Assembly: GCA_023078555.1 (NCBI GenBank)
Contig: CM041203.1
Coordinates: forward strand, 3,701,981-3,765,980
DNA: 64,000 bases
From: Ulva prolifera
Lineage: Eukaryota; Chlorophyta; Ulvophyceae; Ulvales; Ulvaceae
Direction: 5' to 3'
Each line of letters starts with the position of its first letter. The first letter of the stretch is position 1. The translations under genes were made by a program, and so were the position numbers. Of this stretch, positions 22,892 to 51,421 are shown piece by piece. Below the pieces are notes generated by a model. That model did not search any database. It was not told the origin of the DNA and saw nothing but the letters and a program-made list of their open reading frames with translations.

Positions 22892-22923
<32 letters not shown>
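22892..22923 (+). repeat. Poly-G homopolymer run, 32 bases
   Basis: An uninterrupted run of 32 G on the plus strand, about 290 bases upstream of the proposed CTNNBL1 start. It is not inside a supported gene. Long G runs can form quadruplex structures and are prone to length error in sequencing, so the exact length is uncertain. Confidence 0.9.
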
Positions 22924-30581: not shown

Positions 30582-33500
30582 CTAGCCCTGCAGTGTCTGG
30601 GTCGCCTGCCGTCTGACATGATTTGGATCATTGAGTGTGGGCACATTTGTTGCCAGGTCTACGTCCAGCTGATCAATCAAAGCAGCCGAGTTGAATCGCT
30701 GAGCTGGATCCCTGTGCATGAGTTTCTGTAGGATCTTGTGTACGAATTCTAGCTGCACGGGATGCTCCTCATGAGGTAGCATTGTTTCTGGATCTTCCAA
30801 TGCACGCAAGATCTGATCATCAGATAGATGGCATGCCCAGTACGCGTCCTCAGACAACGCTTCGTAGACAAGGATTCCTAGCTGCCACATGTCATATGCT
30901 GGGCTCAAACGGATCTTGGAGTCATGTCCAGAGAGCATCTGTGCTGCTAACTGCACAGAGCACATAGCGATCAGGGGCCACTGTAAAACGATACTACCCC
31001 TGCGAGCTGTGAGCTAATCATGTAGAAAGAGAGACTCATTGCGAAGTGTCATATGCTGCACCAGTGACGGCCTTCAGCAAAGCCATGAAGCAGAACATGT
31101 TGGATTGCGCACTTCGGGAGGGACTGTTCGCGCGGGAACTGTATCCTTTTCAATGTCGCGCTTGTCTTTTGCAACGCGTGCAAATTCAAGCAGGCTCCAG
31201 CCATGGCTGTTGCCGATGCTCACTTGGACGACATTATCATGCGTGACATCTCGTAGGTAGCGTCCACGCATATGGAAAATTCGCAGAAGCTTGGCCAGGT
31301 ACCGCCAAACTGCGAACAGCTCCTGTTGTTTGGCCTGACCAGACTCTAGTGGCCCAATCACATTGCTCAATGACCTTGCACGATTCACAAAAATGCACGC
31401 TGGTATTGTTCTGCTCTGGCCGTTGTGCCTGCATACAATCATTGACAGTGAATAACTGTCCCTCTGAATTACATTAGCCATGTGAAGGCCGACTTTGAGA
31501 GAGAGTGATTGATTACTGTGTGAGATACATGGCCACCTGGCAGCAAAAAGCGGCAGCCAATACGGTTGATTTGTGACTGTGAAAGGCTGGAGCCTTGAAG
31601 TTGAGGCATGCTTTGTGTGTTTGTGCCAAAGGTGAGGTCCAAAATGGCATGTTGAGCCTCAGCAAGAAACTGCTGGGCACTCATGCCCGCCACGACTGCG
31701 CCCACTGCACTTGTCTGATAATTTTTGGCGGTTGTGGGGCTGCAGCTATGTCGGTTCTGGCATGTGCAGCCTCTGCCAACACCACCAGCATATGTGTTTC
31801 ATGTCCTGTCAATCAGCACATTTATCACCTCGCATCCCCAATTCCCGTGATCCCATCAATTCATCTCTCATCTCCGTGCGCATGCTGTTTGATCGCTCAT
31901 TCGTTACGCGCCAAGTTACACACGCATCTCCAGATCTGAACTAAGGCAGCAGTCATTTCCGTGAAATGCATCGCAGCTTATCTCGCGCCGAGCTGAATAT
32001 TACTGCGCTCTGTGCAATTGAGCGGAGTTTTGGCGTTCGGCATGTTGCATGGATGCTGACGCATGGACAGCTAATGTGATTCGAACCGACTGATAAATGA
32101 GCACACTGTGCATTGTGATGCTGCCCACAGTATCTTTTTGCAATTGTTAGCATTGCTCTTTTTTGGTTCAGCAGGTATCCTAAATATCTACAAGCGGCAG
32201 ATTTTTTTTGCAAAACCTGGAGCAAAATCACAAATCTGTGAATCACAGTGCATTGCACACAGAATGAACTACGTTGCATGGTGAGGGGTAAAAAGCGGGG
32301 TCGCCCTATGTCATGGGTGTAATTCCGACCATGAGAGTGTGACTCCAGAGCAAGTGGCCACACCACAAAGAAGGCACGGAGTTGACAATGTAGTATGATG
32401 CTGAAACATCACATTGATTGAAGCACAGGCGTGCAGCATCTGCAAAATGTCTGTGTGCACAGTAGCGCACGTGTGATCATATTCATCTGTGTCCATGGTG
32501 ACCAGCGGCATGCTGTCCCTGAGGCTCAAATGCTGATACATGTTCATGTGACGAGCTTTAAACTTGCTGTTGGGGAAGAAAAGCGCTGTTTCTCCTGTCG
32601 CACAACCTGTTGCAACGTCGGCAATCACAGCGTTGATTCCCATCCTGCAACATGTTGGCATGTCACCTTTTACCATGGCTCAGCTTCTGAAGAACCATGT
32701 CTCCTGCGAAACAATATATCACCAATGGTTAGGGAATGCTGTACAGGCATGCAGCAATATTCACAGCACCTCAAATCAAAGCGAGCAGCTGCCCGAAGCA
32801 CCCTGTAGACAAGCATTATAGGTGACATAGTAACAGAATTGAAAAGAGTTGACGTGACAGAATTCAAAAGCGTTGCCTTATGCTGGTTTTTATCAATATC
32901 TTGCCTGGCTTGACATTGCCTCCCATCACTGCGCAAACATCTTGGAGCACATCGTTGACGGCTTCCAGCGAAGGGTCATTGCTGGCTTGAAGATCAGTTC
33001 TCACCACTGCACGACACGCCAGAGGTGAGCATGCTCGACATGATAGCAATAGAGTTGAATGGTACATCAGTGCCTGTAGGTACAGTACATTGGCCAAGAG
33101 AGCCACACCTGGACCTATTGGCTGAGGACCATGTGGACGCAGAACGGAGCCATGTCCCTGCCACAGCACAGGTGCCACCGGCACTGATGGATAGCCCTCC
33201 ACAGCGCCGTGTCCTGGACCAGACAGATATGGTGTGTGCGGTGGCAGATCGACCCCGGTTCCCTGTCGGTGTGGACTGCGCGGTGCCGGCCCCATTGATG
33301 TTTGCATGGGTTGGACGGGTGAGGCAGCAGATGGCTCAGCGTTGTTCTCCGCTTGGTGCCGCTCCACCAACCTTGTCCCCATGCAGATTCCACATAATAT
33401 GATAGCAGGGACAAGAACTGCTGCTGATATGAATGCTACTGTTAAGCTTGCAACGCCATTTGGTAGTACAACGTCTGGTGTGCTTGAGAGTTCAGACGCC

Positions 33501-34648
33501 TGTGCCAGGAGAATTCTCATGACAGACGTTTCAAATCTGCAGAGTGAACTTGTTCAGATAGATGGTAGCCGATACCTTCTCCCTGGCTTTGCTTGTAATC
33601 AAATCGCCAGGAACGCAGTTTAGATGAAATAGCACACCAGATCCAGTCGTGTTGTAGTGTACGATATGTTGTCAACTTTTTCCAGTGCGATACAATGCGC
33701 GAATTGCGTCTGGCCTGTGCAGTTGTTGCCGTTCTGCCAGGGACAGACACGTGCAAAGAAGTCCACGACAACTGGCCACTGATCATCAATTTGCAAGAAC
33801 TCCAGAAGATTCCTCCAAAAATCTGAAATCAGTTTGCAGCAGTCGACAGAATCTGCTGAAGTTTTCTCTATATGGCAACGGCACGGCGCTACCCATCCCG
33901 GACCTACGCCAGACGACCTCCGCGTCGAAAGTTGTTTGCATGCTGACATTGTGCACCTGCAGACGAGCCGGAAACACTATCTGGTTGAACAAATCAACAT
34001 GGTTGCATGATCAGCCGAGAGGTCCACGAAAATTGTGGCAGTCCGTAGGCTGCAGCGGGTGCCAATACGCGCCTGCTCATGGCATGCAGCAGGCGGTGTG
34101 CACAAGCAGTGCAAGACAGGCCGGTGGGACACGCGCGCAAGCGCAAGCGACGTAGATTTCATCGAAATAAATTTCGGACCATAAGCTGTTTATTTACGAG
34201 TTGGGCCGGTGGAACGCAGCCAAGGCCAACATGCCCCGGGGCAGCATATTGCCCCAAACAGGGAAAGTTTTGAACGAACCACCGCATGAAACCAACGTAT
34301 GTACACCAGTATTGCAGGAAACCGACACTTGTGTAACCCAGCCAGCACGTCTGCAAAACTTGTGCTGTTCGTTGCCGTGTTACCCCCTGACAATGGGTCT
34401 GTGAGCCAGTGCACATTGCAGTACATTCTGCCGTTGCCTCGCTCGAGCATCAAAGGATTATCCACAGACACGCTGTTAAAGTCTATGCGATACATTGTGT
34501 TCGTCATATGCATTGGGCATATCATCATGGGCCCGACCACCAGACGTGTACACATTGTGGTGGTCAGCCAAGAGCTACATGTTCTTAAGCGATTGAGAAC
34601 GACGATCTGGACAGAGCTGTTGACACATACAGAAAGCTCATCTGTCAA
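30582..34648 (-). CDS. PKA: membrane-anchored pseudokinase, array copy 1
   Basis: First of five paralogues. Exons on the minus strand: C-lobe 30950-30582; catalytic loop 31428-31113; N-lobe 32644-32471; juxtamembrane 33006-32877; and a TM and linker exon from about 33540. Membrane helix: VASLTVAFISAAVLVPAIIL, followed by a Pro-rich cytoplasmic linker and the conserved juxtamembrane KPGKILIKTSIR. The kinase fold is shown by YDMWQLGILVYE and RDPAQRF in the C-lobe and a VPPE activation-segment end. Key residues are degraded. The beta-3 position reads TALFFPN without Lys, HRD reads YLRDVTHDN (Asp and Asn kept, Lys lost) and DFG reads LLEFA. The intron after the juxtamembrane exon starts with GC (ATAAG|GCAACG). 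Upstream exons at 33949-33620 (SDFWRNLLEFLQIDDQW) and 34648-34190 probably belong to the N-terminal, outward-facing part. Predicted non-catalytic receptor-like protein. Confidence 0.72.
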
Positions 34649-34693
34649 GACGAGTCTATCGCCAAAATGCCGCCATACGAAAAGGCATACGTC

Positions 34694-37547
34694 CTAACTT
34701 TCAATGACTAAATCGGGCTCCTCAATCGCATCGCCCGGATTCAATGTTACAGCGCCTGCTGTAGCAAGATCCTGCTCCAGGCGCTTGATGAGATCAGCAG
34801 AGCTGAACCGCTCCTGCGGATCGCGGTGCATCAAGTGCTCCATCACCTTCTGTACAAGGTCCAGCCCCATCGGGCGCTCCTCATGTGGTAGCGGTTTCCG
34901 CGGATCAGCCATTGCACGCAAGACGTCACCATCACTCATGCTCTCAGGCCAGTACTTGGACCCAGTCATAACTTCATATACCAGAATACCCAACTGCCAC
35001 ATGTCATATGCAGGACTGAGGTGGATCTTCTCTCCAAGCGCCGTCAACATCTTTTCTGCCAACTGCATCCACATACACATATGAATAGAGCATTGAAGCT
35101 GGCCTATCATGCATAAGCAACCCAGACACACGAGCATCGCTACGATAGACACAGGTATCAACATCAATGGCACAAGTACTTGACGTCAGCCAAGAATCGC
35201 ACCTCTGGTGTGACCGTGCGAGGTGGGACAGTTGCTTTTTCGATGGCCTTGCGCTCTTTCGACGCATTCCCAAACTCAAGCAAGGTCCAGCCTTCACTTA
35301 CTCCCATACGTACAAACACGACGTTTTCATACCTCACATCTCTGAGATACCAACCGCGCTGATGGAACATGCGCAGAAGCCTAGCTAGCTGCTGCCAAAT
35401 GCCAAAGAGCTCCTGCTGCTTTTCCTGAGGCGTCGCGAAGTTCTGTACAACGCTGTCCAGGGTCTTGGCACGGTTCACAAAGATACACGCTGGCAGCATG
35501 GCGGAACGGTCATGATCCCTACAGTGTCAGAACTTCGTCGGTTGGGTAGCTCAATAGCACTGCTCTGCATCGAAAACAGCAACTGGACATACAATGTGTG
35601 CAATGAATGACATGGCACGTTGACCCATCCTATGATGATTGAGACATACGTTTGCTCAAATGGATCTGTGTCCAGTGACACCAGGGGCATGCTGTCCTTG
35701 AGATTGAGCTGCTCATAGAGCTTCATCTGCCTGATCTTGCAATTCCGGTCCGGGAAAAAGAGAATCGTTTCATCTACAGCATAGTTCGTCGAAGCATCAG
35801 CAATCACTGCGTTGATGCCCTTCCTGCACCATTTGTTCAAGTCATGTGCCCTTGCAGTAGATCTGGCTTCAGCATGTCATGTGTACAGACAAACCAAGAC
35901 GTGCAACTCGTAGAGTCGTGGGGCCTGATTTTGCTATACAGGAAACAAACTGCCAATGTGGAAGCCTTTGATGTGTGAGCTGTCACTTATTCCAACATGA
36001 GAGAATTGTCTGGGCGAAGATGCAGTCAGTAAACTATCGAGTGCCTGAACGCAAGCTGCAATTACGCAGCTGCATGTTGTAACGAGTAGCAAGTACCTGA
36101 TACTGCTCTTGATAAGAGTTTTTCCTGGCCGAACGCTACCCTTCATCAGGGTACACATGTTGTGAAGCACTTCTTCCACTGCTTCAAGCGAAGTGTCTCT
36201 GGGGTTCAGCACTGCTCCATCTGAAACAAGAAGAAATCGTGCGGCACCTTCTGGAAAAGGACAATGGCCACGACTGGAAATTGCGCATGCAGTGTACAGA
36301 GAGTGAATACGTACCCGACTGCTGGGGTGAGGCTGATACATGACCTGGCGGGCCCAGGGGAGGACCAGCACCATGCACAGCAGGCGGCACGCCAGGAGGC
36401 TGGTGCCCTGGTACTGGGGGGCCTTGATAGCCTACGCCTGACTGTAAATTCGCCTGGTTTGGTGGTGTGAAGCCAGGCGGATAGTTGTGTAGATACCCGG
36501 GAGGGTAAGGGGTTGGATATGCATGATGAGGTGCTCCAGGAGAAACACCATGTGGAGGTCCATGTGGAAGGACAGCGTAGTTCGCGGGCCAAGGGTGTGA
36601 CCCGTGCGAGTAGTGCTGTGCTCCTGGTGGACGGTGGGGACCATGCTGGGCAGCGGACTGGTGGGCAGGGGGAGCCGGTGGTTGGTGATCCGGTTTCGAA
36701 TCGCTACAAAGCCCGCATAGTAGCAATGCCGGAACAATGACTACTAATGAAACCAGCGCGAGCGTCACGGCGGCAGTCGCTGTGCCGGTAAACTCTGCCG
36801 CTTCGACAGCCACGGCCAACAGCTCCCGCATGACGACAGAAGCGTTTCAAGTACCTACGCGCAGGTCAGAACCGATTCGTACGGACTCACTCGCAATTTT
36901 CAATCAAACAGGCTGTATGTTGCAAAGCGACAGTTCCGGTCTCATGGATCGTGGAAGCACTACTACACAGGGCACTCAGGTAGGCAAACGGAAGGACACA
37001 AAATGCGTAACGATTTCGACTCAACATGGGCATGCGTTCGTTGGATAGTCGTGTCTGGAACTGCAGCTGCCCATGTGCAACATGAATTACTACCTTCCAC
37101 AGAGCCTGGAGGAGTCCTTCTCCATGCAGGTAAAATGAGGCAGCGAGGATATAACGATACCGTATTTTGATGGACGACCCAGACGAAGGACGCCTACAGC
37201 TTTCCAAGAGAGCACTCACGGAGCATAGCCAAGATTGCGAATTCGATGGCGATGTCGATGCTGAAAGGAACTGTGCCGTATATGATCTGCTCATATTTTG
37301 TGTCAAGCATGCGACATCACCTGCCGTTTGTTGCCGTGTCAGGCAAAATGGTCGTGGCATGTTCGTCGCCGCTCATGATCGCAGTAGCGTACATGCATGC
37401 AGCAGAGACACTGTGAGCAGCTACCGGAGAGGACAGGCTGCAGCAGTGCTCAGCAACGAAGGCCAGGATCAGCGAGAGCTGCGCAAAAATGGCATTCATG
37501 TTGATTTTGGCGCCCCGATGGTGTGTTGCGATTCCGCGGTGATACAT
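34694..37547 (-). CDS. PKB: membrane-anchored pseudokinase, array copy 2
   Basis: Best-resolved copy. Exons on the minus strand: C-lobe 35062-34694, catalytic loop 35518-35203, N-lobe 35823-35650, juxtamembrane 36220-36097, TM and linker from about 36831 to 36315. Membrane helix: AAVTLALVSLVVIVPALLLC, then a His/Pro/Gly-rich linker (HQPPAPPAHQSAAQHGP) of about 120 residues, then the juxtamembrane motif VRPGKTLIKSSIRKG. Kinase-like hallmarks: WYLRDVRYENVVFV (HRD becomes LRD, Lys becomes Arg, Asn kept), GWTLLEFGNASK (DFG becomes EFG), TVTPE, YDMWQLGILVYEV and RDPQERF. The beta-3 Lys is absent (ETILFFPDRN) and no Gly-rich loop is seen. The N-terminal region probably includes 37547-37317 (MNAIFAQLSLILAFV), which lines up with exons of PKA, PKD and PKE. 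The join to the TM exon is out of frame as read. Confidence 0.75.
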
Positions 37548-39405
37548 GAAGCGGTCTTCAGTGTCTCTGGTAGTCTTTCCTGAGTTGCACAGACATCTCG
37601 GCTGGTGCAGTACACCATACTAGGCTGAATGTATGGCAGGGCGCCTTGCCACGTCCCGATCCAGCAGAATGCTTGCATTTTGCGATAGTATGAGCGGCAG
37701 TATAAGTCGTTTGGCTCATGGGTGCCAGGTGCTTTGCTTTGCTTTGGTATGCAATCGCTCAATTCACGCGGATGGCATTGCGGGTGCTTTTCAGGGGTGT
37801 TGCAGAGCCATTGGAGGCTGCCACCATCGATACATCTGCCCTGACATTGGTTGTGGAAAGCGGGCTTTTCTTGAGCTGGCAAATGGCTCAGTTCAATACG
37901 GCCCACCTCGGGCAGATAAGGCTGACGCTCTCGGGAGGTGTGGTGTGATGTCCGACTGGGGGGGGTGGGGGGAGGGGGCCCAGGTGAAGAGCCCTGGAGC
38001 CTAGGTTAGTTTACATGCATGAACCGTGTACACTCCTGCTGGGCTGAAGTCCCTTCATAGCGAGAACCTGTGACTGTCAACATCGACATTGCGAACATGT
38101 TATATTGTTACACATCGGAGCTTGTGCTGTTCTGGGCCACCAGACAGCATTTCGAGGTGCGGTGCGAATGGCATTCATACCGATGCGAAGGAAAGCATAC
38201 ACGGCCAGCGATGTGCATGGCACATACCGATTGCACAACGTACAAGGAGCACACAAAGCGCAGAGTCTGCCTTCTTGAGGCAAGGCCAGGCGTTTGGGGC
38301 TCCCGACTGATGGACACGGACATGAGCATGGAGGTTCAGGTCAATGCGGACATCTCAACATGCTGTGTATCCATCTGTGTGGCGTGGTCCTTGGAATCGG
38401 TGGCTGAGTCAAACTCGCTATTGAAACATCAGGCTATTGACTGGACTTCTGGTGTCCTCGGCTGCGCCGTGGCTCCACAGCGGCTGTATGCGGCAGGCAG
38501 CCTTCGCACATGTGTTGTGGGATCGGAGGCTGTCTCACGGTCGCCCTCACAGTCCTCTTGGGAGAGCCTGGTTGGTAGATGCTGTAGATGGGCTCGGGCA
38601 ACTCAGGCGCCTGCGGTTGCCGCCTGCTGCCATGTCAACTCTGCCTTCGCGTGAGGCTGCACGCACAGGAAGTGGCCATGCCTTGTGGTGCTTGCATAGA
38701 CAATAACACATGTACATCTGGTGATCATGTCTCCCAGTCATCGCAACTTCCAAAGGACTGGAGATATTTGACGATCGGATGTTTCACGCATACCACCACT
38801 GCAGCATGACCAGCTGGGGACATGCGCATACCCAGGCGGGGGGGCGTGCGCATGTCTCTGGCTGGCAGTGCCTGGCACAGCGCCCCCCACAGCGCTCGCC
38901 CTGTGCTGTGAAAAGACGTGTACGCCGCCGTCACGACTTCAGCATCAGCCTCGCCGTTGAACAGCCTTACTCATGCATTCGGCATGTCGCGGACATACAG
39001 TGATGGGCGCTGCGGCAGGCTGCCCGGGAGGGGTGCTGCTCGGTCGTGCCTGTGCTGTTGGCCCACCTCCAGTGGCTTGCAGTCATGTGCTCTGTCCTCA
39101 CTACTTGTAAGTTGAATATCCCATGTGCAATGTCAGGTTCGGTATGCACTCAAGGAATCATTTCTGTGGGGTGTGTTGCTGTGAACGCCAGTGAGTGGGC
39201 TTCATGCTGCCGTGGCTCTGGGGAGTGCTGTCGCAGGCAGCAATGTGAGTGCATGACACAAGCACCGGTTTGGTGGCTGAAAATTCGCGATTCAGTGTTG
39301 CGAGAGTGGTTGTGTAAAAAAAAAAGTTGCTGTGATCTGTAACCTTGGCAGTCCCCTAGGGGCTCCTGATCCGCATCAGTCCCACCGCTGCTGGAACCCA
39401 CGCAC

Positions 39406-39441
<36 letters not shown>

Positions 39442-39775
39442 CCGCAAGAATCTTGCTGCTGTGGCAACAGCCTGTGCGCTGGTGTCACTTGCGAATGTGG
39501 TGACTCCCCTTCAAGTGCTGATGCCAAACCTGTGCGATTGAAAAGCGATACCTACGCATTGCTCTTGAAATTTTGATCACCGGTGATGCATGTGCCCCGG
39601 AGTGTCCAGCCCGAGATAAACACCTCCAGGTTCGTCAACGATGCATGCACGCAACATACTGTGGGGCACTTGAATTTTGCAAAGAATCAAGTTTACAAAG
39701 CATGTTAATGTTACATCTGTATGCACCACCATCCGGTGCAAATCAGTGTAAAATACACAGAGTTCAAATCATGAA
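37548..39775. other. Spacer between PKB and PKC
   Basis: Possible further 5' exons of PKB on the minus strand (a frame at 37906-37496) cannot be confirmed. Long plus-strand frames (38070-38654, 38437-38706) lack any family pattern. It contains the poly-C run at 39408-39437. Confidence 0.3.
39408..39437 (+). repeat. Poly-C homopolymer run, 30 bases
   Basis: Uninterrupted run of 30 C on the plus strand (poly-G on the strand the array genes use), about 330 bases from the PKC stop. It lies outside any supported exon and would be prone to length error in assembly. Confidence 0.9.
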
Positions 39776-41863
39776 CTATGTGGCATTTAGTTCCACTGGT
39801 TTTTGTTGGTGAATTGGAGCATTGCTGTTCAGGGTCTTCACCATGGACGCAGTGACCACTTCCTCCTCCATCATCGTGTACAACTCAGTCGCATTGATGC
39901 GTGCCTGCGGGTCCCTTGCAAGCATGCGCACGAGCACACTCTGGATGACCTCACGGGAAACTGGCCGTTCTTGGTGTGGTAGGGGTGCACCGGGGTCGCT
40001 GAGCACCTGGAGGACTTCGATGTCGGTCATGGAGTCCTGCCAGTATCTTTCACCGGACATGACCTCGTATACGAGTACACCAAGCCTCCAGATGTCATAT
40101 GATGAATGCATCTTGACTCTTTCCTCAGACTCTGTCAGCATCTCAGCCGCAAACTGTAACTATGGGAAGTCAACAACGCTGAGCGGCAAAGGCAATGAAT
40201 GACGCATACACACGCGTTCATGTTTGATTTGCATAGTGCCTGACGAGCTGGGTACATACCTCTGGAGGCACAGCACGCGGATTGAGAGCTGCTTTGTCGA
40301 TGCCTTTACCTTGCTTACTTGCGTGCCCAAACTCCAGCAAGGTCCATCCTTCACTGCCACCAATCCGCACATGCACAACATTATCTGCCTCGACGTGCCG
40401 CAAGTACCATCCACGTACATGAAAGATCTTCAGCAGCTTGGTGATGTTTGTCCAAACACTGATCAGCTCAGTATGTCTCTCCTCAGGGCTTTGCACACTG
40501 TCCATCACTGCTTGCAACGGCTTGGCACGGCTGACAAAGATTGCAGCTGGCAACATGGCCGTTAGACCAACATCTCTGCATGTGTGACCAATGAAATGTG
40601 TCAAGGACGTTCATAGTAGCGCAGCGCCAGTGCAATTGCCTTCCGTCAAGACCAAGCTAGTGCAGCAAAGAACGCACGAGTGTGAAAAAGCATCTGTATC
40701 TTGTGACACCAGAGGCATGCTGTCTTTGAGATTGAGCTGTTCGTACAGCTTCATTTGCCGCTGCTTGCAATTACGGTCAGAAAAAAACATGACTGTTTCC
40801 TCAGTGCCATGCACTGTCGTAGTGTTTGCAATGACCGCAGTGAATCCCAGCCTGCACTGCCATGGATGCATAGATTCATTGTTTCAGGTGGCAACGATAC
40901 TCAATCATACTCAATATGAGAAGGCCTGGACCTGTCCGAGTGAACTGCAACATGTACAGTGTACAGAAACCTGACGCTACCAGCAGGAAATCATTTGCAT
41001 TGTGACTGCAATATGACATCATCTCTAAATGACCATTGTCTGATCGTTGTCATGCCATGAACATGTCCCCCCTAGATGATACCAATTGGGATGTCGTTGG
41101 GACCAAAGACAGACCAACGTCAGCCGTTCCAGGGCTAGCTCGGTTGCGTACCTGACTGATCCTTTCACAATGTTTTTACCTGGCTTGATGCCACCTTTCA
41201 TGACGTCCCCCATCTGGTTCAGCACATGCGCGATTGCAGGCAGAGAGTTATCAGCTGGTTGTAGGACCATTGCTACATCAGCAGATAAATGTTGGTTTTG
41301 AAATTTGTCGTGCACACAGTACAAGTGACCGGGCCTCTCACAATGAGGTTACTCATGTGGGACGCGTTGAAGATTCACCGAGGTCAGCATGAAATAGGAC
41401 TCATCGCACCTGTCGGACGGGGCTGCTGATCAAATGCTGAGGCTTGTGGCTGATGCAGCGTCGCATCTGGTGCAGTCACATGTGCAGCCGCAGCAATGGG
41501 GATGCCGCTACTGGCCGTGCTTTGCTTCCCAATTACACCCTGATTGTGATTCAAGACAGGATTCTTTGTTGGAGCAGCATGGGGCTTGGATTCTTCACAT
41601 ATTCCACAGATGATCATTGCAGGCACTAGCACAGCCATGGAAACAATGGCAAGAACCACCGCAGTTGTGGCCGTGGCAGGACTCACTTCGTCCACTGAGG
41701 ATATGGCAAGAAGAGCACGCATTACGCCAGATATTTCACTCTGTCGACCAATATTCTGCATGAGCGTCAAGAGTTGCTGTGGCAGACCAGTGGCCGTGCT
41801 GCTCAGGCGCGTGACTGTGCAGCAACGATCGGGATACCTGTCATCTGCTCGAAACGACTGCAA
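39776..41863 (-). CDS. PKC: membrane-anchored pseudokinase, array copy 3
   Basis: Exons on the minus strand: C-lobe 40154-39776, catalytic loop 40575-40260, N-lobe 40851-40678, juxtamembrane 41272-41152, TM and linker from 41863 to 41410. Membrane helix: TAVVLAIVSMAVLVPAMIIC. The juxtamembrane reads GGIKPGKNIVKGSVR. The C-lobe shows YDIWRLGVLVYEV and RDPQARI. This is the most degraded active site in the array. The catalytic loop is WYLRHVEADNVVHV, so the catalytic Asp of HRD is His. DFG is EFG (LLEFGHASK) and the beta-3 segment is ETVMFFSDRN without Lys. Its N-lobe (MKLYEQLNLKDSMPLV) is identical over that stretch to PKB, so the two are closest relatives. Residues before the TM exon (GLPQQLLTLMQNIGR) suggest an upstream region, but only about 700 bases separate it from the PKD stop, so the N-terminal part is probably short. 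Confidence 0.72.
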
Positions 41864-42563
41864 TGTGCGATCATCACAGGAGCGGATGCTTCACAGGGTG
41901 TCCACCATGATCATTATTCCCCACGGCTCGCGTGGCGAAGCCTCTGACAACACCCCGTGCACAGAATAAAAATTGTTGACACACACAAATGGGCACAGCG
42001 CGACACTTCTGCGGGGCGTCACACTATGTCTTACAATTGTATATTGCGGATTTGGTGTCGGTTCTACGTACAGTTGTGATTTCAGCACTTTTGCCGAGGA
42101 AACGCGGATTCAGCTTGCGCATGCGCCGTTGGGAAACATGACGAAGTCGCACTCTACGCTAGGGAGGCGACCTGAAGGGATCAGGTGGTGCACGTTTCGC
42201 GAGTACGTCATCAAAGATATTACATTCCCGAAAGAAAGTTAAGCTGAAGCCAGCCTGCCGATGTCGGCAACGCGCGTACACCTGTGAGGCTATGGTGCAG
42301 TCTGTCGGACCAGAAGTGTACGGCATCAGGCGACGTGATGGCCGGCCTGTTTCAACTCGAGTGCGATCACAAAACCGTATGTCACATGCACACACACCAC
42401 ATTTGTGGTGACAACAACGCTGCGAGTATCTTGACGTCACGCGCACCATCACTGCGAAACCACCCCGACTGTCCACTGCTTCGTGCCCCCTCCCCCCTCC
42501 CACCGGCGATCAGTCAGCAGGAGCCGCAAACACCCGATTAAAGTCTCGCCACCGGGTACCATA
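41864..42563. other. Spacer between PKC and PKD
   Basis: Short spacer between array genes; it may hold 5' exons of PKC. Frames on the minus strand (42088-41891, 42503-42159) have no recognised pattern. Confidence 0.3.
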
Positions 42564-45438
42564 TCAAGCATCTAAGACTACTACTGGCTGCGGCACAGGT
42601 GGCATGGCGTTCATTGTCGAGGAGAGAGTTCCAGTTTCTTCCTCATGGTCCAACAGGGCTTTGAGCGCAACTGCATCGAGCCGCGCACCCTCATCACGAG
42701 TTAAGAGCTGGCCCAAGATCCTATTAACAAGATCGATTGATACTGGGTTGCTCTCATGTGGCAAGCGCGCCTGAGGTGTAGCGAGATTGTGAAGGATTTG
42801 TCCCTCAGTCATCCTGCTTGGCCAATATGGGCGGCCTGTGCTGAGCTCATATATGAACACTCCCAACTGCCACATGTCATAGGACTGCCGCACGATCATC
42901 GGACTCCCATTAAGGCGGCCACTGGCAAGCTGCAGCACAATCAAGAAGTTTAACAATCAAGCACTAAAGCACCGCAGATGATCTCCCCACATACATCAGC
43001 AACAGCGTCCTCCCGACCGGACATCGACTGTAGAGTCAACAAAGCCAAATCACATCAAATGATGCAGAGAATCAGAGTTGTCAACAGCCTGGACACCATA
43101 CCTCAGGTGGAGTGCTTCGTGCAGGCATGGACTCCGTCTTTGCTCCACACTTCACTGCACCCGCGTATTCAAGGAACGTCCAGCTACGAACCTGGCCGAG
43201 ACTGGCTCGCACAACATTGCGCACACAGATGTCCCTTACTACGATCTTCCGCCTGTGCATCAGCACAAGCTGGCGGGTGATGTGCTGGCACACAGTAAAC
43301 AGTTCATGAAGGACATCGCGCTGAGTCCTACATATTGACATTGCCTCCCGAAGTGTTTGGCATCTGTCAACAAACACATGTCCAGGAAGATGCGCAGCTT
43401 TGCCAGAATGGTCCCTACATGCAGGCAGTCGTAACTCCAGAAGCCCAACATCCAAATTCGAACGAGCGAAACTATGCAACCCTTCGCACATGTTTAAATG
43501 ACATGCTGAAAGTGGCTCACCTGTATATCAGTGGGCTTCTCTGCTCAGATATGACGGGCATGAAATCGCGAATTCCTTGTTTTTGGTACATCTTCATGTG
43601 CTTCTCCATGCGGGACGGATCAGGGAAGAAGAATGCGGTCACTTCAGTCCTGAATCTATTTGTGACTTCTGCAACAGCTGCATGCATTCCTGCCCTGCGC
43701 CACAAAAACTTCCTCACAATCTTGTGCGCTCAGACAGCTCGCAGCAGAGCCCCTAGGGTAATGTTCACCACTCTAGCCATATATTTTCATGATTCCACCA
43801 GACACACTGATTCAGCACATGCGAAAACAAGCCACTCAACAAATTACATGTCAGCAAAGCTCAGTGCCATTTCCACTGTCACGAAACTGGATCGTGGGAG
43901 TGACACACTGCCGCTGCACCAGCATTGTGAAACAACCTTGGGCATACATCAGTTCTCAAGTGCTGTCATCAACAGCTCGAGGACATTCAGCACCGGCGAA
44001 CAAAAGCACACTTTACCCCAAACGTGCAGCCAGGCCAGTGTAATGAGGAGCATCGGACCATCCACTGTTCAACAGTGAACTTGCCGCCCTGATGGTGAAC
44101 CCGAGCAGCACTGTGTAATGAGATGAAATCCACCAGAAACTCATCAACTTCCACACACACTCCACCACATCACCATGGATAACAAAGCGACAGGAACCTC
44201 ATCGCTGGAACTGCTGCCACCGTATGTGCGTACAAATCAGCGTACAGTCAGCCTATCGATGCAAGATGTATTGCCCACACTACTCGCCATAAGTAGTGGT
44301 ACTTTTGTTGTGGCAGATGGCTCAAGTGACACGGATGACAGAGTCCAGAAGCACGACTGAAACACACCGAATCGTTCCCTGGTGAAGATAGCACTGCGGT
44401 TGAATAGCTCCGCCCATGACATCGCACACAGTATGGAGTGTGCGGATAGTATCCTCGACTGTGCTCTCTGCTTGTGTACCAATAGGCGCGCTGACTGAAG
44501 TACAGCATGCATGTCAAACTTTCTCAGCAGGTTGGTTCACTTACGGCTACACAGTGCAGGAGAGATCACCTTGTGTGCCTGAAAGATCTGTATTTTCGTA
44601 TGCATCCACAGGAGGATAGCCTTGGCTACTTGGACTGATCTGCATGACACAGCATTCGTACAGCTCACGCGCAGGAAGTCAGACGATTTACTTCATTCAT
44701 GCAACAAGAACTGTTATGGTCGCACTCTTGCAGGTGGATTTGGCTGGGGTGGCTGACGCGGGGCTGGGGCTGCCGGTTGAGGTGGAGCTGGGGGTGGCTG
44801 ACTCCCGTGATGGTGCTCTTGCGAAGGACCCGCTGAGGGCTTTGACCACTCGGGAGCAGGATGATGAGGATCATTGACAATAATCTGGTCGTGTCCTTCT
44901 TTGTGTGCCTGATATTCATCCTCTGAGGCATGAATCGGCATTTCCGCGGAATTTGCCGACGGATCAGGCTGCGGGCTGGGCCTAGTACTCTTTCTCCCAC
45001 ACATAGCAAGCAGAGCCCCCATGACTATCATTGTAGACAATATGCCCAACACGGCGCCAAGATCTGTCTCGCCCAAGCCCGTATTGAGCAATGTCCTCAT
45101 GACTGTAATGCACGGAAGCACTCTGATATGAACACAGTGATGCAAGAATTTCGCCGATTGGCGATGTGCAGCTGTCAGTCGTTTCCTATCGCTGCTGCAG
45201 AAGTGTCGTTACCGATGCATCCCATCTAGCTGCACCCCAGTACGCGATTGAGAAGGACTCGCAATGACTGCACAACGTTGCTGGTCATCAAATGTATGCG
45301 TTCGCTGTAGACATTGGTAAGGCAGCCGTGAAGAAACGCAAAAAGATCCTCGCGGCGAGCCACAAGGGAGAGGTACCGTCGGCGAGCATTGCTCAGTCGA
45401 TCTTTCAGTCTGCTTTCTTGACTTCCGGGCTGCAGCAT
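42564..45438 (-). CDS. PKD: membrane-anchored pseudokinase, array copy 4
   Basis: Exons on the minus strand: C-lobe 42929-42564, catalytic loop 43414-43102, N-lobe 43694-43521, juxtamembrane about 44494-44368, TM and linker about 45110 to 44730. The membrane helix LGAVLGILSTMIVMGALLAM is followed by a Pro-rich linker ending QPAAPAPRQPPQPNPP. The juxtamembrane reads VCDVMGGAIQPQCYLHQG, close to PKE and unlike the PGK form of PKA to PKC. Kinase-like marks: IVVRDICVRNVV (HRD becomes VRD, Lys becomes Cys), TFLEYAGAVK (DFG becomes EYA), STPPE, YDMWQLGVFIYEL and RDEGARL. Beta-3 is VTAFFFPDPS, without Lys. An exon at 45438-45226 (DLFAFLHGCL, NVVQSLRVLLNRVL) probably belongs to the N-terminal side. 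The exact donor of the linker exon is not settled. Confidence 0.7.
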
Positions 45439-47454
45439 ATGGGCCGTTCTGTGTGCTTCAGCAACCGCGACCCGCTACTAGCACATGCATGCTTGCACGA
45501 AGCCTGCCGCGAGGCCTGCCGCGAGGCCTGTCGCCCCAGCCGGCCACGGCCGTAACAGGTTACAACTTTCCAATCAAGACACGCAAGTACACGTCGCAAG
45601 ACAATTGCCAGCGATGAACCGGTCGATCAAGAAGTTGCGGGGGTTATATTGTCCGGATACGGCTTCCGACCACAAGCACAGACAATGTGCCCAAGTGCCT
45701 GGCTTGGCGGCAGGCACATGATATTGATAATTTTCTAAAGAAGTTTTGCCGAGCTGTTTCGCAATCACATTCTCAGGAAGCCTCATATGCTTTGCTCTTT
45801 GCGCACGACATCGCCATGCAGAGAGGCAGCTTAAGTGGCCTACAACCCCCGCATCTTGAATCAACACGTGAAATTATGTGACGATGTATTCTATTGCTTC
45901 TTCGGGTGTATGACGAGATGATGCATTGATGCGTTGGTTGTAGACGCTGTACCAGACTTTCACGTCAGCCACACGCGTCGCAAACAAGCTAGCGTCGCGT
46001 CGTGTCAGAGAAGTATATTGATAAGACCTTGTCAAGACCCGAGTTCGGCCGAATCGCGGTTTTGTTGTCTTTTGACACCGTGGACCTCCGACTGCGGAGC
46101 GAATCCTGAGTTTTGGATCAGCCATCCATTGCTTTCAGGCTTGGACGAGTCAGACATGATATTCCCTCTTCCTTCTTGTTTCCTGAGTTTCGACTGCGCA
46201 TTGTACGCGTCAGCGGAAAAGTCGTCGTTTCTTGGTCACCTGCCCATACGCAACTCTCGCGCTTGTTGTCGCCTGGGTCGGTCAGCCCCGTCAACTTGAC
46301 TCCGATACTTTATGTATGCCGGTGCAATGGCACTCGAAGTAAAACCCGGTACCGACAACACCCCAGATCGTGCTGCCACCCAATACCATACATGGCAGAC
46401 ACATGTGCAACGCCTCAACACGCCCTAGATTTTAAGATCAAGCCATCATATAGCGCTAAGAAGACATGACCTGCAGATTCTTTGGGACTTCTTTGCAGAC
46501 TTTGCAGGACTGTCCGACTGACACTGCGTTCTAAAAGCTTTCACACTGCCTTGTGGTGCAAACTTGGTCGAATTTAGAATTTTACACGTATGCACGTGCG
46601 TGTTCTTCACATGAGTGCTCTGAAGCCTTTGAACACCACGCGCAACTGTTCACGCAAGCAGACGTTCCATTCATGCATTTCAAGTTCTGCAGCCTACAAT
46701 GTTGGTGTCCAGGTTAACAATTATTTGGAAAAGGCAGCCCGACATCACAGGACATTCAAACGGAATATTTTTATTCTACAGAAGATTTTTCTGTTGTCCA
46801 ACCGCGGACCGGGACATCCCCATCAGACAAACTGCACCCAACATACAGTTAACACGAATATCACAATACCAACTTGTACTTGGTAACCCCTTGACAAGGT
46901 GAAGCTGGAACGTTGAAACATTTGATGTGCCAACTCAGGCTGCACGGCTGGCGTCCATGTTCAGGAAAAATCAAATGAGAACGTAAAATCGATGACACTG
47001 TGATCTGTGCTATGAGCATTCGGCCGACAGGCGAGTGATATTGTCGAAAATACAGGCCACCATTGGCAATGCTAACCGCGTCCAGTGCAACGTTGCGTGT
47101 GTGCGACTCTATATGGTAGTGCCCCGGACAAACACATCAGCTATCTATTATTTGCCAATTGGAGCGTCATGGGTGACTAGGAGAATGTCCGCATGATGGC
47201 CAGACAGGGACAACATGCCTTGTGTTAGACTACATCAACATTATACAGGAAGTTCGACAGTTCTATCCTTGCCATCCGGGCGACTGGGGTAGTTGGTCCA
47301 CACTCCAACAGTACCTGCATGGAAGCCCACTGTAAGATTTGGAAACTTCGACACAAGACAGGGCAGAAAGTGCCACGGCTCGACAACCTGTAACTGCAGG
47401 CGCAATAGACACCACAGCTGCTGATATGAAGCAAATCATTCATATGAGATCTTA
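45439..47454. other. Spacer between PKD and PKE
   Basis: May contain the first exons of PKD (a minus-strand frame at 46125-45874 is a candidate, with VWYSVYNQRINASS). Three copies of a 12-base unit GCCTGCCGCGAG, the last imperfect, lie at 45500-45535. No other gene is supported. Confidence 0.3.
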
Positions 47455-50400
47455 TCATGGTCCGAGCACACCAGACTTATCATGGTCCTCCAAGACTGTC
47501 TTCAGACCATCATGCTTGGGCCTGTCAGTAGGGTCCCGTGCAAGCATCAGTCTGAGCATGCCCTGCACATTGTCCAGCCGGACTGGTGCTACCTCATGAG
47601 GCAGCGGAACATCTGCGCTTGCTAAGGTGTGCAAGAGCTCGGCTTCTGATATGTCAGGCCGCCAGTATGGCCGCCGCTGCACGATCTCATATACCAGTAT
47701 ACCAAGTTGCCACACGTCAAACGGTCGGTCCATGCGGAGGCTCTCACCCCGCATGCGTGCGTCCGCAAGCTCTGGTACTGTCATGCGCAGCGGTACATAT
47801 GATGAGTCTGTGCCAGCCGCTGCACTGGAACAGTATTCCAGAAGGGTCCATCGGCGCTGTGTTCCCGTCAAGGTTTGCACAACATTAGACATGCATAAGT
47901 CGCGGACAACCTGGAAGCGCCGTCCCTGTTTTGAAACATGCTGCTCCAGTCGTCCAGAATACCATGGCATGCATGAGATTTATAGAGACAAGCTCGGTGG
48001 GCAAACATGATTCCAAAGAACGCACATCTGGCAGCAGCAACTTGCGCCCAGCAATTCATACTTCCATGCAACTCACAGCACACACACGCCACAACACGCA
48101 CATACAGGAAGCACAGCGGAGAAATTTTGGTTGCACACACCTTCTTGCGAATGTGAAAGGCAGATATCTGATAGTACAGTTGAATGCATATGAGGAACAC
48201 CTCAGCGCTGAGAGCCTTGTCGTCGTCACATCGAGCGATCGCATCTGGCACTGATGTGCATCTATCAACAAGAATGTGCGGAGGCAGCATCACACTGCAA
48301 TTGTTATGCCTGCATGCATCAGCCCCAGGTGAAGCAACTGCGCTGCACACACAGGTGATCCCAGCACATACACCTTGGCGAATTGAGATGTTGTGGCCAT
48401 CGTAGAATCAGAATTTGTGTCTGTGCGCAACACAGCAACACAGCAAGTGCAACACGAACGTTGCGACTGCGCGACCTGTCATTGGGGGAACAATTGAGAA
48501 ACATAAACCAGCGCAGCGCATCACCTGAATTCCATGCCATCATTGCAGCTGTTGACATTCGGCATGAAATCTGATACCCATTGCTTTTTGTACATCTTCC
48601 TCTGTCTAGAGTATCGGTTGTGCCTGGGGAAGAACATGGCTGTGGAGGTGACACCATGTGACGTCACCTCTGCGACCGCAGTGTTTATGCCGCTCCTGCA
48701 TCACACCAGCTGTGTCTGTCACCCATCATTCCAGAATTTTTGCATGACCATGCAGGATCTGGCCAAAAGCCGGCCTAACAACGATGTGGATCTTGAATAT
48801 GATAACTGCCCAGGACCAGATGTCACGGTATAGATTCGCAAATGCCAAATCGACAACCCGGTAGTCGGGGAAGCCATGAAGAGAATGATCGAGCAACACA
48901 GCCAGGTCATCGGGTGAACACTGCTGTTCAATTCACTTGACCAAAACTCACAGCCAGAGAATAGGGATGAACCGAGTCCACTAACACATCGGAAACAGCT
49001 TGGGAACAGAGCAAAGTTACCATACCGTATGCTCTCCTTATGGATGTGGTGCTGTGGTCCAATGGCACCATTCATCTCATCGCAGATCTTATTCAGCAGC
49101 CGCATGACGTCATCTACCGAGTCCCCCTCAAGCTCTATGTCACACCGACCTTTTTGTACCCCAGCCGTTGTGGCCGCTGTGCCTGCAGCGATAATGATTG
49201 GGTGAGGCGTTGGCGGCAAATCAGCAGATAGAGGTGAACTGAAGTAACAGTGTTCTTCACTGCAGATTCTATTGACATGCCATGCAGCATGAACAGCATC
49301 CAGAAACATGCGAGCATGGTATCCAGTGAGGTGGTGGTGACGGTGTAATGTGGGAATTCATGGGTGCGGACGCTCACAGTACATGACCAGTCGCAGCACG
49401 CTGCTGACCACATTGACTGTCGCGCCGTGAGAGGATGTCAAAGCGCAGGTTCTGAAGAAGATTGGCACAGCCGTGGGCACGCTTCACCAAGAGTGCCATG
49501 CAGTGCAACGTGTCCGCGGTAAGGGTGTCGTCATTTGCAGTAATCACAGGCTCAGGCGCGTCAACATAAGCGAACGTACTGCTTGCTAAAAGGCTTGAAC
49601 CGCCGGGGAACGCATGGGGAATTTCCGGCAATACAGATCCTTCTGTACTAACACATGATCCTTGCTTGTCAAACTGTATCTGCAATAACGTATTCAGGCT
49701 TGCGGTTCATTCGGCACACTACATACATACGTCATATAGGCGCAGAAGCTGATGTGCCCGTGTTCACCCTGACATGCAGTGCCGGCACATGCCAAGTGTC
49801 ACACCGCAGAGCCTGACTGTGGCGGCTGTGGTGATTGTGGAGGCTGTGTTGAATGGGGCGGCTTGCTGACACTAACTGGGACATCGGCTTGCTGTGTTCT
49901 CTCGGCCTTCGAGCCGGCACACAGTGCGCACACTGCCACCAACGCTCCCGCGCAGAGAACAGACGCAAGAGCCCAAGCGAAACCCCCTGCTTGATTCGTG
50001 AATATTTCGGAATTAGATGTGGACGGATGGACCAGCAGACCTCTCATTGCTTAAAAGTCCAGTCCTGACTCTCAAGCTGCCAGGGCGGATGTGCTCTTTT
50101 ACAGCCAGTGTGCGGGCCTCAACTTGGCCTGAACGCAAAACTGTTGTACAGGACCAGCCTCCTGCGCCTCAGAACCTCGGGACTACCATGTTGATCAGAA
50201 CTGAGGATTGAATACTCTCATGCTTTGGCATCTGGTGCCCTGTACCGAGAGAATGCGATTGCAGAGAACGAGTGACGTGTATGCCAATTTCATGTTCTGA
50301 TATGGTTTATGGTAGATGTGACATCAGAGACGAATCTTCTTTCTACTAGCTTGGCGGGGTATGTGTGACCGATGTATTTCGCCAGCAATTTGCCCCACGG

Positions 50401-51421
50401 TAATTCATTCTGCGTGCAGGCCGTGTACCTGCGCCTGATGCAACGTCGTGGCCACAGGCTAGAACAATACCATATGTGCGTACGTACGTGGCTCCGGTAG
50501 GAATAGATTGGAAAACAAATGTCCCGGGAAACGACGTGCTCTAGATACGGTGGTGAGAGGAAATCAGAAAAATTGAAAGGCTGCAGTCAAAATGATGCAA
50601 CAGAGTCAGTATGACGTACTAACTGTAGACGGTGACGAGGAAAGAAGTCGCCAAGAGCTGGAAGTAACTAAACAGCCCCTTGGCATTCAGGCTTGAATAA
50701 TCCGCAACATACTAGCACCTTTGTTGCAGATCAGATAATCTGCGTGCCACGCTCACTTGGGCTCAAGTTTTTGCGAGGTGTGACGCCAGAAACACATACT
50801 TTCAGTAGACTGCGTGCGTGGACATCTCCCGATCGCGCCCTTTGCGACACACCAAGACAGAAGTCGGGAGAATCTATGCGATAGGTGTACATTCCGCTTT
50901 CAAACGGGCGCATGGATGCTGCCAATCAGCTTGCAATGATTCGGGCACACGCAGTAACCCAAAGCATGTCTTGAGTGGATTCTGTTACCAACTGGATCTG
51001 TTGAGTGGTGCACAGTCGCGGCAGAACAACTTTCCGCAACGGCCGGACTGGGTGGCAAAATTGATCAACTGCAGATCAATTGGTCACTGATCGCATTCAT
51101 CAATTCGGGCTGAAGCGGTTTGTATACCTCCAAAGGGCCTTTGCTGGCATGGCGCAAGAGGTGTTCAAGCCACTGCACCAGCTCGACGTTCGAGTGTCGA
51201 GGCAAGCCGCAGCCAAAAACGAAAAGCAGCTTCGAAAGGATTGCGAAATGGCGGTTCAACGTATTCACAGACTGCGCCTGGACGATCAGGCTGCTCAACG
51301 CAAGACGTTGACGTGTAGAGCAGAAATTCATCGGGTACGGTCGTGGGTCTCTTTTACACGCACATACAAATGTGCTACAGAGGCCTTCATGTGGTTTTGT
51401 GCTGGTTGTACAGGCGGGCAC
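47455..51421 (-). CDS. PKE: membrane-anchored pseudokinase, array copy 5
   Basis: Most diverged copy. Exons on the minus strand: catalytic loop plus C-lobe in one exon 47925-47455; 48309-48141; N-lobe 48695-48525; juxtamembrane 49149-49026; TM exon about 50030 to 49800; and a membrane-proximal exon in 51421-51065. Membrane helix: GGFAWALASVLCAGALVAVC. Juxtamembrane: ICDEMNGAIGPQHHIHKESI. Kinase-like marks: VVRDLCMSNVV, TLLEYCSSAA (DFG becomes EYC), a degenerate TVPE, FDVWQLGILVYEI and RDPTDRP. Beta-3 is TAMFFPRHN, without Lys. The intron found after the PPE codon in the four other copies is missing, and the reading frame runs straight through. A different intron (47926-48140) splits the catalytic-loop exon instead. 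The region upstream may extend to about 52.2 kb, where an exon-like segment with VLMVVPVKYQTDQFA is followed by a consensus donor. Confidence 0.68.

Follow-up and report, generated by a model that had tools for sequence, protein, structure and literature searches.

The window, that is, the whole stretch of 64,000 nucleotides of Ulva prolifera DNA that was analyzed, contains five tandem genes on the minus strand (A to E, 30582–50047), which are intact and spliced in the predicted models. Each product would cross the membrane once, with a very short tail at its N-terminus and, after the helix, a flexible linker and a kinase-like domain of the pseudokinase type. With moderate confidence, we propose that these proteins act as membrane-bound pseudokinase adaptors or co-receptors devoid of an ectodomain, similar to CORYNE (CRN) of Arabidopsis.

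Table 1. Predicted gene models of the array and selected features of gene B.
Feature	Coordinates	Strand	Exons	Product or remark
Gene A	30582..33520	-	5: 33520-33109, 33006-32877, 32644-32471, 31428-31113, 30950-30582	466 aa
Gene B	34694..36831	-	5: 36831-36315, 36220-36097, 35823-35650, 35518-35203, 35062-34694	499 aa
Gene C	39776..41722	-	5: 41722-41410, 41272-41152, 40851-40678, 40575-40260, 40153-39776	433 aa
Gene D	42564..45100	-	6: 45100-44726, 44639-44570, 44494-44368, 43694-43521, 43414-43102, 42929-42564	474 aa
Gene E	47455..50047	-	6: 50047-49805, 49679-49580, 49182-49026, 48695-48525, 48309-48141, 47910-47455	431 aa
Gene B, membrane helix (LALVSLVVIVPALLLCGLC)	36706..36762	-		predicted from hydropathy
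Gene B, exon 3 (N-lobe)	35650..35823	-		Leu (TILFF) in place of the beta-3 Lys, Gln in place of the alpha-C Glu
Gene B, exon 4	35203..35518	-		hinge, alpha-E, catalytic loop LRDVRYEN, LLEFG at the DFG site

The models agree with a preliminary description of this DNA, in which five minus-strand genes of one architecture had been placed in a row. Its upper border of the array at 51421, however, is apparently about 1.4 kb too far, as the last gene begins at 50047, and no match to gene B was found in 50048–51421. Together, the models comprise 27 exons and 22 introns, 21 of the latter with GT-AG borders and 1, in gene A, with GC-AG; no frame is broken. Two splice positions are common to all five genes, the exon 3 type measures 174 nt in A to D and 171 nt in E, and the exon 4 type measures 316 nt in A, B, and C and 313 nt in D. 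Among the individual features, intron 3 of gene A spans 1042 nt, while gene E is devoid of the intron that falls between PE and L and carries an additional one upstream of the catalytic loop. The starts of all five genes were placed by eye from conservation, as were the short second exons of D and E, with that of E being the least certain exon of its model, and gene C contains another in-frame ATG 5' of the chosen start. A sixth close copy was not found among the 113 of 169 candidates scored in the genome.

The kinase-like nature of the domain is supported separately for both lobes. The Pfam family Pkinase (PF00069) matches all five proteins over the C-lobe only, with E-values ranging from 2.1e-11 (B) through 1.5e-9 (C), 6e-7 (D), and 1.8e-5 (A) to 5.5e-5 (E), of which those of B and C lie above the curated cut-off and those of A, D, and E below it. 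A profile built from the five sequences matched PAK6 in the PDB at 3.1e-12, and titin was among its further matches (3.8e-6). Independently of the C-lobe, the N-lobe matched that of relatives in the same genome with an hhalign probability of 96.7 and a score of 53 (5 rows from the window versus 22 of 29 loci), as against a best value of 13.5 in 30 column shuffles. Based on sequence evidence from the C-lobe and the N-lobe, A to E belong to the protein kinase superfamily.

The same genome holds a large family of relatives, with at least 155 matches counted at the exon level. The assembly also contains an LHCII of green type and gave no rbcL match. The kinase part aligns with these relatives from the N-lobe to the C-lobe, including the hinge (LPPCIVMERG/LPACIFVNRA), and the open frames of three of them (L017, L018, and L030) suggest an intron right before the glycine-loop strand, as in A to E, while that of L034 reads through this site. 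Among the 28 distinct relatives that were read, the beta-3 Lys is kept in all 26 that are covered there and the DFG Asp in 27; 20 harbor the full motif set, and 2 further ones are merely cut short. Flaws also occur in relatives scored as complete, namely, a stop and a frame break within the kinase part of L022, a missing APE Glu in L026, and a missing HRD Arg in L050. A to E form one group with a support of 100/100 in a tree that is unrooted, contains relatives chosen by similarity, and does not give the direction of motif change; the parsimonious reading from the relatives is that A to E lost the motifs. By its sequence relationships, the array thus appears as an offshoot of a large family of receptor-kinase-like genes in the same genome. 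The local expansion claimed in the preliminary description is borne out by the five tandem copies and their single tree group, but they do not represent an isolated family, since the genome is rich in relatives with complete catalytic motifs. The lineage-specific and immune-type character proposed there is putative, the former having been examined in this one genome and in viral contigs.

This setting bears on the main rival to the adaptor role, according to which the array mimics receptor-kinase domains and serves as a set of decoys guarded by an immune sensor, like the ZED1-related kinases (ZRKs) and ZAR1 in Arabidopsis. While a tandem arrangement of pseudokinases alongside many relatives with complete catalytic motifs would suit such decoys, and the available part of one report describes the ZRKs as clustered in the genome and for the most part pseudokinases (PMC9539561), the kinase parts of A to E have diverged to 30–57% identity and are not recent copies, and the proteins are anchored in the membrane by a helix. 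We regard a decoy function as unlikely.

The active site of all five proteins lacks the same three residues: none (0/5) has the Lys of beta-3, the Glu of alpha-C, or the Asp of DFG, and the last of these positions is occupied by Glu in 5/5. The catalytic-loop Asn is kept in 5/5 and the HRD Asp in 4/5 (His in C), DxWxLG and RDxxxR are present throughout (5/5), and a single Gly of the glycine loop is retained. The pseudokinase-type active site described previously is hence supported in every copy, both in the retained DxWxLG and RDxxxR and in the missing beta-3 Lys and DFG Asp; the absence of the alpha-C Glu, the retention of the HRD Asp, and the constant Glu at the DFG site had not been mentioned. 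Under the sequence definition, by which at least one of the beta-3 Lys, HRD Asp, and DFG Asp is missing, A to E are pseudokinases, and they most likely cannot transfer phosphate. Two Lys positions outside beta-3 (alignment columns 31 and 69) are kept in 4/5; the one immediately preceding the first strand is Gln in D, and the other, within the alpha-C helix, is Asn in A. These could be putative stand-ins if A to E were enzymatically active despite their atypical site, or bound nucleotide or metal; the beta-3 Lys would then be dispensable or replaced, and the HRD Asp, the Asn, and the Glu at DFG could hold metal and nucleotide. This possibility appears distinctly improbable to us, as neither the Lys nor its Glu partner is present, the DFG Asp is likewise missing, the glycine loop is reduced, no juxtamembrane or N-lobe column of the A to E alignment holds a Lys common to all five, and, according to the available part of the report, the corresponding Glu in titin kinase accompanies inactivity (PMC4042850).

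With regard to the N-terminal part, all five proteins start with 'MRxLL' and share the order of a short tail (15–27 residues), one membrane helix, a linker, a juxtamembrane exon, and the kinase-like domain. As proposed before, there is one clear helix per protein (5/5): the best hydrophobic window of 19 residues begins at residue 16–28 and reaches a Kyte-Doolittle mean of 2.31–2.83. In A, C, D, and E, it is also exon 1 that encodes the equivalent of the gene B helix (Table 1). The linker is Pro-rich, as previously described, in A, B, and D (17–26% Pro) and fits this description less well in C and E (12%). Because of the tail of 15–27 residues and the in-frame stops upstream of the ATG (2 codons in E, 6 in B, 12 in A, 37 in D, and 57 in C), no ligand-binding part lies in one frame with the helix in the predicted models. 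A tail of this length leaves no room for a sensor domain, and the designation as receptors is not supported, unless spliced exons farther upstream contribute such a part; the preliminary description was silent on this missing ectodomain. Of the components of a receptor-like kinase, A to E as modelled possess the helix and a (degenerate) kinase domain and lack the extracellular ligand-binding domain. In contrast, long stretches precede the helix in the open frames of L018 with L033, L019, and L034. Searched with five ectodomain pieces of relatives, the window gave no match with an E-value below 0.24, and 2 ectodomain pieces of relatives yielded no match in Pfam.

The charges flanking the helix are too weak to settle the topology. 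An N-terminal hydrophobic segment whose orientation is left free in this way might be a signal peptide or a luminal anchor, with the kinase-like domain acting outside the cytosol, yet a usual signal peptide differs from a 19-residue hydrophobic window starting at residue 16–28, and in the relatives L019 and L034 the kinase is placed after a helix with a basic flank. We consider this topology very unlikely and the kinase-like domain of A to E probably cytosolic.

The kinase part is conserved although synonymous sites are saturated (A–B, dN 0.375 and dS 2.57; B–C, dN 0.40 and dS 4.11; all by NG86 only, with dS saturated or undefined), while tail, helix, and linker change faster. Exon 3 is similar between B and C; as dS is about 2.2 there, constraint is a likelier cause than recent gene conversion, although this estimate lies near saturation. 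None of 105 pattern stretches in viral contigs was a relative in one scan, and, to that extent, a viral origin of A to E was rejected. That the genes are ordinary decaying copies without function is extremely unlikely: active-site residues are missing, and relatives such as L032, L035, L036, L037, and L046 are degenerate too, but the frames of all five are intact, the 22 introns have GT-AG or GC-AG borders and include two at positions common to all the genes, the protein is conserved while synonymous sites are saturated, and the identical three residues are missing in 5/5.

As adaptors or co-receptors, A to E, which share their stock with the receptor-kinase-like family of this genome, would act as non-enzymatic partners that bind ectodomain-bearing relatives or kinase-less receptors. 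Such contacts would be made by the helix, by the juxtamembrane segment, or by the kinase fold, and the proteins may thereby help to assemble, deliver, or gate receptor complexes, in the way CORYNE acts for CLV2. This adaptor model is favored by frames that have stayed intact and splice positions that are shared despite divergence, by the uniform absence of three residues, by the conserved kinase part, the single tree group, and the separate N-lobe match, by the short tail with one helix, and by what is described for CORYNE and titin kinase; against it, the HRD Asp kept in 4/5 and the catalytic Asn kept in 5/5 would be needless in a pure scaffold.

Pseudokinases as partners in receptor-kinase signalling are known mainly from land plants and animals. 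If the proposed role holds true, a large receptor-kinase-like family and, sharing its stock, an array of membrane pseudokinases would coexist in a green alga. Five copies and complete-motif relatives in one genome would then provide a natural system for studying the role of a kinase fold after catalysis is lost. More tentatively, the array may represent shared non-catalytic partners or decoys for this very large receptor-kinase family, a counterpart of CORYNE or the ZRKs outside land plants, with a distinct dead-site signature and possibly still able to bind metal or nucleotide.

Among known systems, the ZRKs are not known to have an ectodomain or a membrane helix. Like the five tandem copies described here, these Arabidopsis proteins (RLCK XII-2) are clustered pseudokinases (PMC9539561); they differ in being land-plant proteins and in having the NLR ZAR1 as partner. 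Titin kinase shares the Glu at the DFG site, one of its two deviations, and was interpreted as an inactive pseudokinase scaffold in the available part of the report (PMC4042850); it differs in its retained beta-3 Lys (YMAK) and in being a muscle protein that is not membrane-anchored, and we take the shared Glu as convergent. In green algae, WAK-, malectin-, and G-lectin-RLKs as well as expanded LRR-RLKs have been described (PMC10834447), and Trebouxia genomes show gains and losses in families of kinases, including some designated LRR receptor-like kinases (PMC11523091); the available parts of both reports contain no ectodomain-less pseudokinase array. Within the genome studied here, relatives such as L018/L033, L019, and L034 have a long N-terminal part, and 20 of the 28 relatives read have the full motifs; A to E have neither. 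The previous statement that no described family has this layout holds insofar as no description of this family appeared among the papers listed in our literature searches, but the clustering resembles that of the ZRKs and the layout that of CORYNE. The latter is an Arabidopsis membrane pseudokinase with a helix and a kinase-like domain of degraded motifs, without a large extracellular domain, which pairs with CLV2 through its TMD and requires this pairing for ER export, as far as the available part of the report goes (PMC4983110). A to E likewise combine a helix and a pseudokinase domain without a large ectodomain, a likeness that is an analogy in layout to a land-plant protein. CRN has lost the HRD Asp and possesses a signal peptide and a small extracellular domain, whereas A to E lack the Lys, the alpha-C Glu, and the DFG Asp, mostly keep the HRD Asp, and occur as five tandem copies with a linker.

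The five genes A-E lie in a row on the minus strand, as the preliminary description had it. The window belongs to a eukaryotic assembly of 88.9 Mb in 44 contigs, in which a nuclear LHCII-type gene has PDB matches to green-plant and green-algal light-harvesting proteins; the organism is therefore a green alga, or else an alga whose plastid is green. The gene models, built by joining conserved exons by eye and then checked by script, comprise 27 exons separated by 22 introns. The intron borders are GT-AG in 21 cases and GC-AG in one, and the frames are unbroken in all five genes. Two introns, one ahead of the glycine-loop strand and the other ahead of the hinge strand, are common to A-E in position and phase, and the exons of type 3 measure 174 nt in A-D and 171 nt in E. 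The kinase parts are only 30-57% identical, and the retention of one structure by five such diverged copies is not due to chance. Compared to A-D, gene E lacks the intron after the PE motif and has an additional one ahead of the catalytic loop, which probably represents one loss and one gain within one gene. The GC-AG intron is intron 2 of gene A, with GT-AG at that position in B-E. Intron 3 of gene A has 1042 nt, compared to 102-215 nt for its counterpart in B-E, and may contain an insertion. The array had been thought to extend to 51421; the models reach only 50047, and part of that interval lies beyond the array. A 294-codon open frame overlaps this portion.

Features of the window, and two identical kinase genes on contigs C7 and C23 of the same genome
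Feature	Location	Strand	Remark
Genes A-E	window 30582-50047	-	array
Gene A, intron 2	window 32876-32645	-	
Gene A, intron 3	window 32470-31429	-	
Gene E, region without post-PE-motif intron	window 47455-48695	-	extra intron ahead of catalytic loop
Open frame	window 51065-51949	+	294 codons, stop to stop; upstream of gene E
CTNNBL1 gene piece	window 20688-21377	-	other flank of array, at a distance
Formin FH2 gene piece	window 59389-61101	+	flanks array at a distance
Homopolymer run, 32 G	window 22892-22923		
Homopolymer run, 30 C	window 39408-39437		
L020, kinase gene	C7:624539-628072		identical to L021
L021, kinase gene	C23:12612-16145		identical to L020

The architecture described earlier is shared by all five predicted proteins: each starts with MRxLL and has 15-27 residues ahead of a single best hydrophobic window (19 residues, mean 2.31-2.83), followed by a linker (74-140 residues, 12-26% Pro), the juxtamembrane exon and the kinase-like domain. 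The reading of these proteins as receptors was not supported: an in-frame stop precedes the chosen ATG by 12 codons in A, 6 in B, 57 in C, 37 in D and 2 in E, and gene C has one more in-frame ATG within that interval. Given the short tail and these stops, the proteins as modelled have no ligand-binding domain, although spliced upstream exons may exist. A search of the window with five N-terminal-region pieces of relatives gave a best E of 0.24, a weak control because these regions diverge fast. The charges flanking the helix do not fix which side the kinase part faces; by analogy with the relatives, we infer that it is cytosolic.

Kinase homology is supported by sequence searches. The Pfam Pkinase profile matched the C-lobe of all five (E 2.1e-11 to 5.5e-5), with B and C passing the curated cut-off and A, D and E below it, and a five-sequence profile retrieved PAK6 from the PDB at 3.1e-12, likewise in the C-lobe region. 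The N-lobe is too diverged for such matches. Its hhalign comparison with that of 22 of the 29 relative loci read, both sides being taken from a joint alignment and realigned separately, gave a probability of 96.7 and a score of 53, with 30 column shuffles reaching at most 13.5. Here, KFF of the relatives aligned to LFF of A-E, which supports the loss of the beta-3 Lys.

That both this Lys and the DFG Asp are missing, as first noted, was borne out in each gene. The beta-3 position is occupied by L (A, B), M (C, E) or F (D), the alpha-C Glu position by H (A, D) or Q (B, C, E), and the HRD Asp position by D, except for H in C; the catalytic Asn is kept and the DFG Asp replaced by Glu in 5/5. No Lys is common to A-E in the juxtamembrane and N-lobe columns, where two Lys positions are retained in 4/5.

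Searching the genome with gene B returned the five window genes and many far weaker places on other contigs, the best at 53.5 bits (113 of 169 candidates scored). The kinase part of one relative yielded at least 155 matches at E <=1e-5 (150 of 525 candidates scored), with clusters at 7.2-8.7 Mb of contig C5, 0.56-0.73 Mb of C7 and 4.3-4.4 Mb of C1. Upstream of the kinase, the relatives L018 (with L033), L019 and L034 have long open-frame stretches followed by a helix with a basic flank, which justifies calling the family receptor-kinase-like; two of their ectodomain pieces were run against Pfam and gave no match. L020 and L021 being identical, the 28-kb contig C23 is probably a copy of part of C7 and may be an assembly duplicate. 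The 29 loci therefore represent 28 distinct relatives, picked non-randomly, by similarity, from a family with at least 155 exon-level matches. The beta-3 Lys is present in 26/26 of those covering the position, the HRD Asp in 24/28, the DFG Asp in 27/28 and the full five-residue set in 20/28. L041 and L048 fall short of the set solely through truncation of the match or locus; L025, L032, L035, L036, L037 and L046 depart at one or more positions. The last five all keep the beta-3 Lys; four of them have Asn for the HRD Asp, and L032 has GFG for DFG. The pattern of A-E was found in none of the 28, and these other dead-site patterns suggest that pseudokinases in this family may have several independent origins. 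This large family, with many members carrying complete motifs, may be a bigger story than the array itself.

In an unrooted maximum-likelihood tree of 32 rows (omitting L021 and the cut L048), for which the program warned of long branches, a branch supported at 100/100 sets A-E apart from all other rows, in agreement with a locally expanded family; the five divide into D with E on the one hand and A, B and C on the other. For the kinase part, NG86 values, unreliable as ratios, were dN 0.375 and dS 2.57 for A-B and dN 0.40 and dS 4.11 for B-C, with most remaining pairs undefined through saturation. Tail, helix and linker evolve faster (dN 0.64-0.93 among A, B and C). The conserved protein and saturated silent sites speak for purifying selection on the kinase part.

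Receptor-like kinases in green algae and kinase-family turnover in Trebouxia are covered in PMC10834447 and PMC11523091, respectively. Our literature search, in which subscription journals were thinly covered and which is thus weak evidence, listed no paper describing algae with such an array, in which pseudokinases lacking an ectodomain stand in tandem. Membrane pseudokinases without an ectodomain are a known kind; the new element is their occurrence in a green alga as an array of five genes. Membrane anchor, flexible linker and a kinase fold whose site is disabled fit with a non-catalytic partner, which would be the most likely role; judging from the kept HRD Asp and Asn, metal or nucleotide binding may persist. 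A decoy role would find its parallel, with no membership implied, in the ZRK pseudokinases, which PMC9539561 describes as clustered sensors for the NLR ZAR1. For the non-catalytic partner, the best functional parallel, again with no membership implied, would be CORYNE, which, according to PMC4983110, has a transmembrane domain and lacks both a large extracellular domain and the HRD Asp, and pairs with CLV2 via the transmembrane domain, a step that has to precede ER export. Like CORYNE, A-E combine a helix and a kinase-like domain without a large extracellular domain, but the HRD Asp is kept in 4/5. Furthermore, with no membership implied, A-E share the Glu at the DFG position with titin kinase, which is described as an inactive pseudokinase scaffold in PMC4042850.
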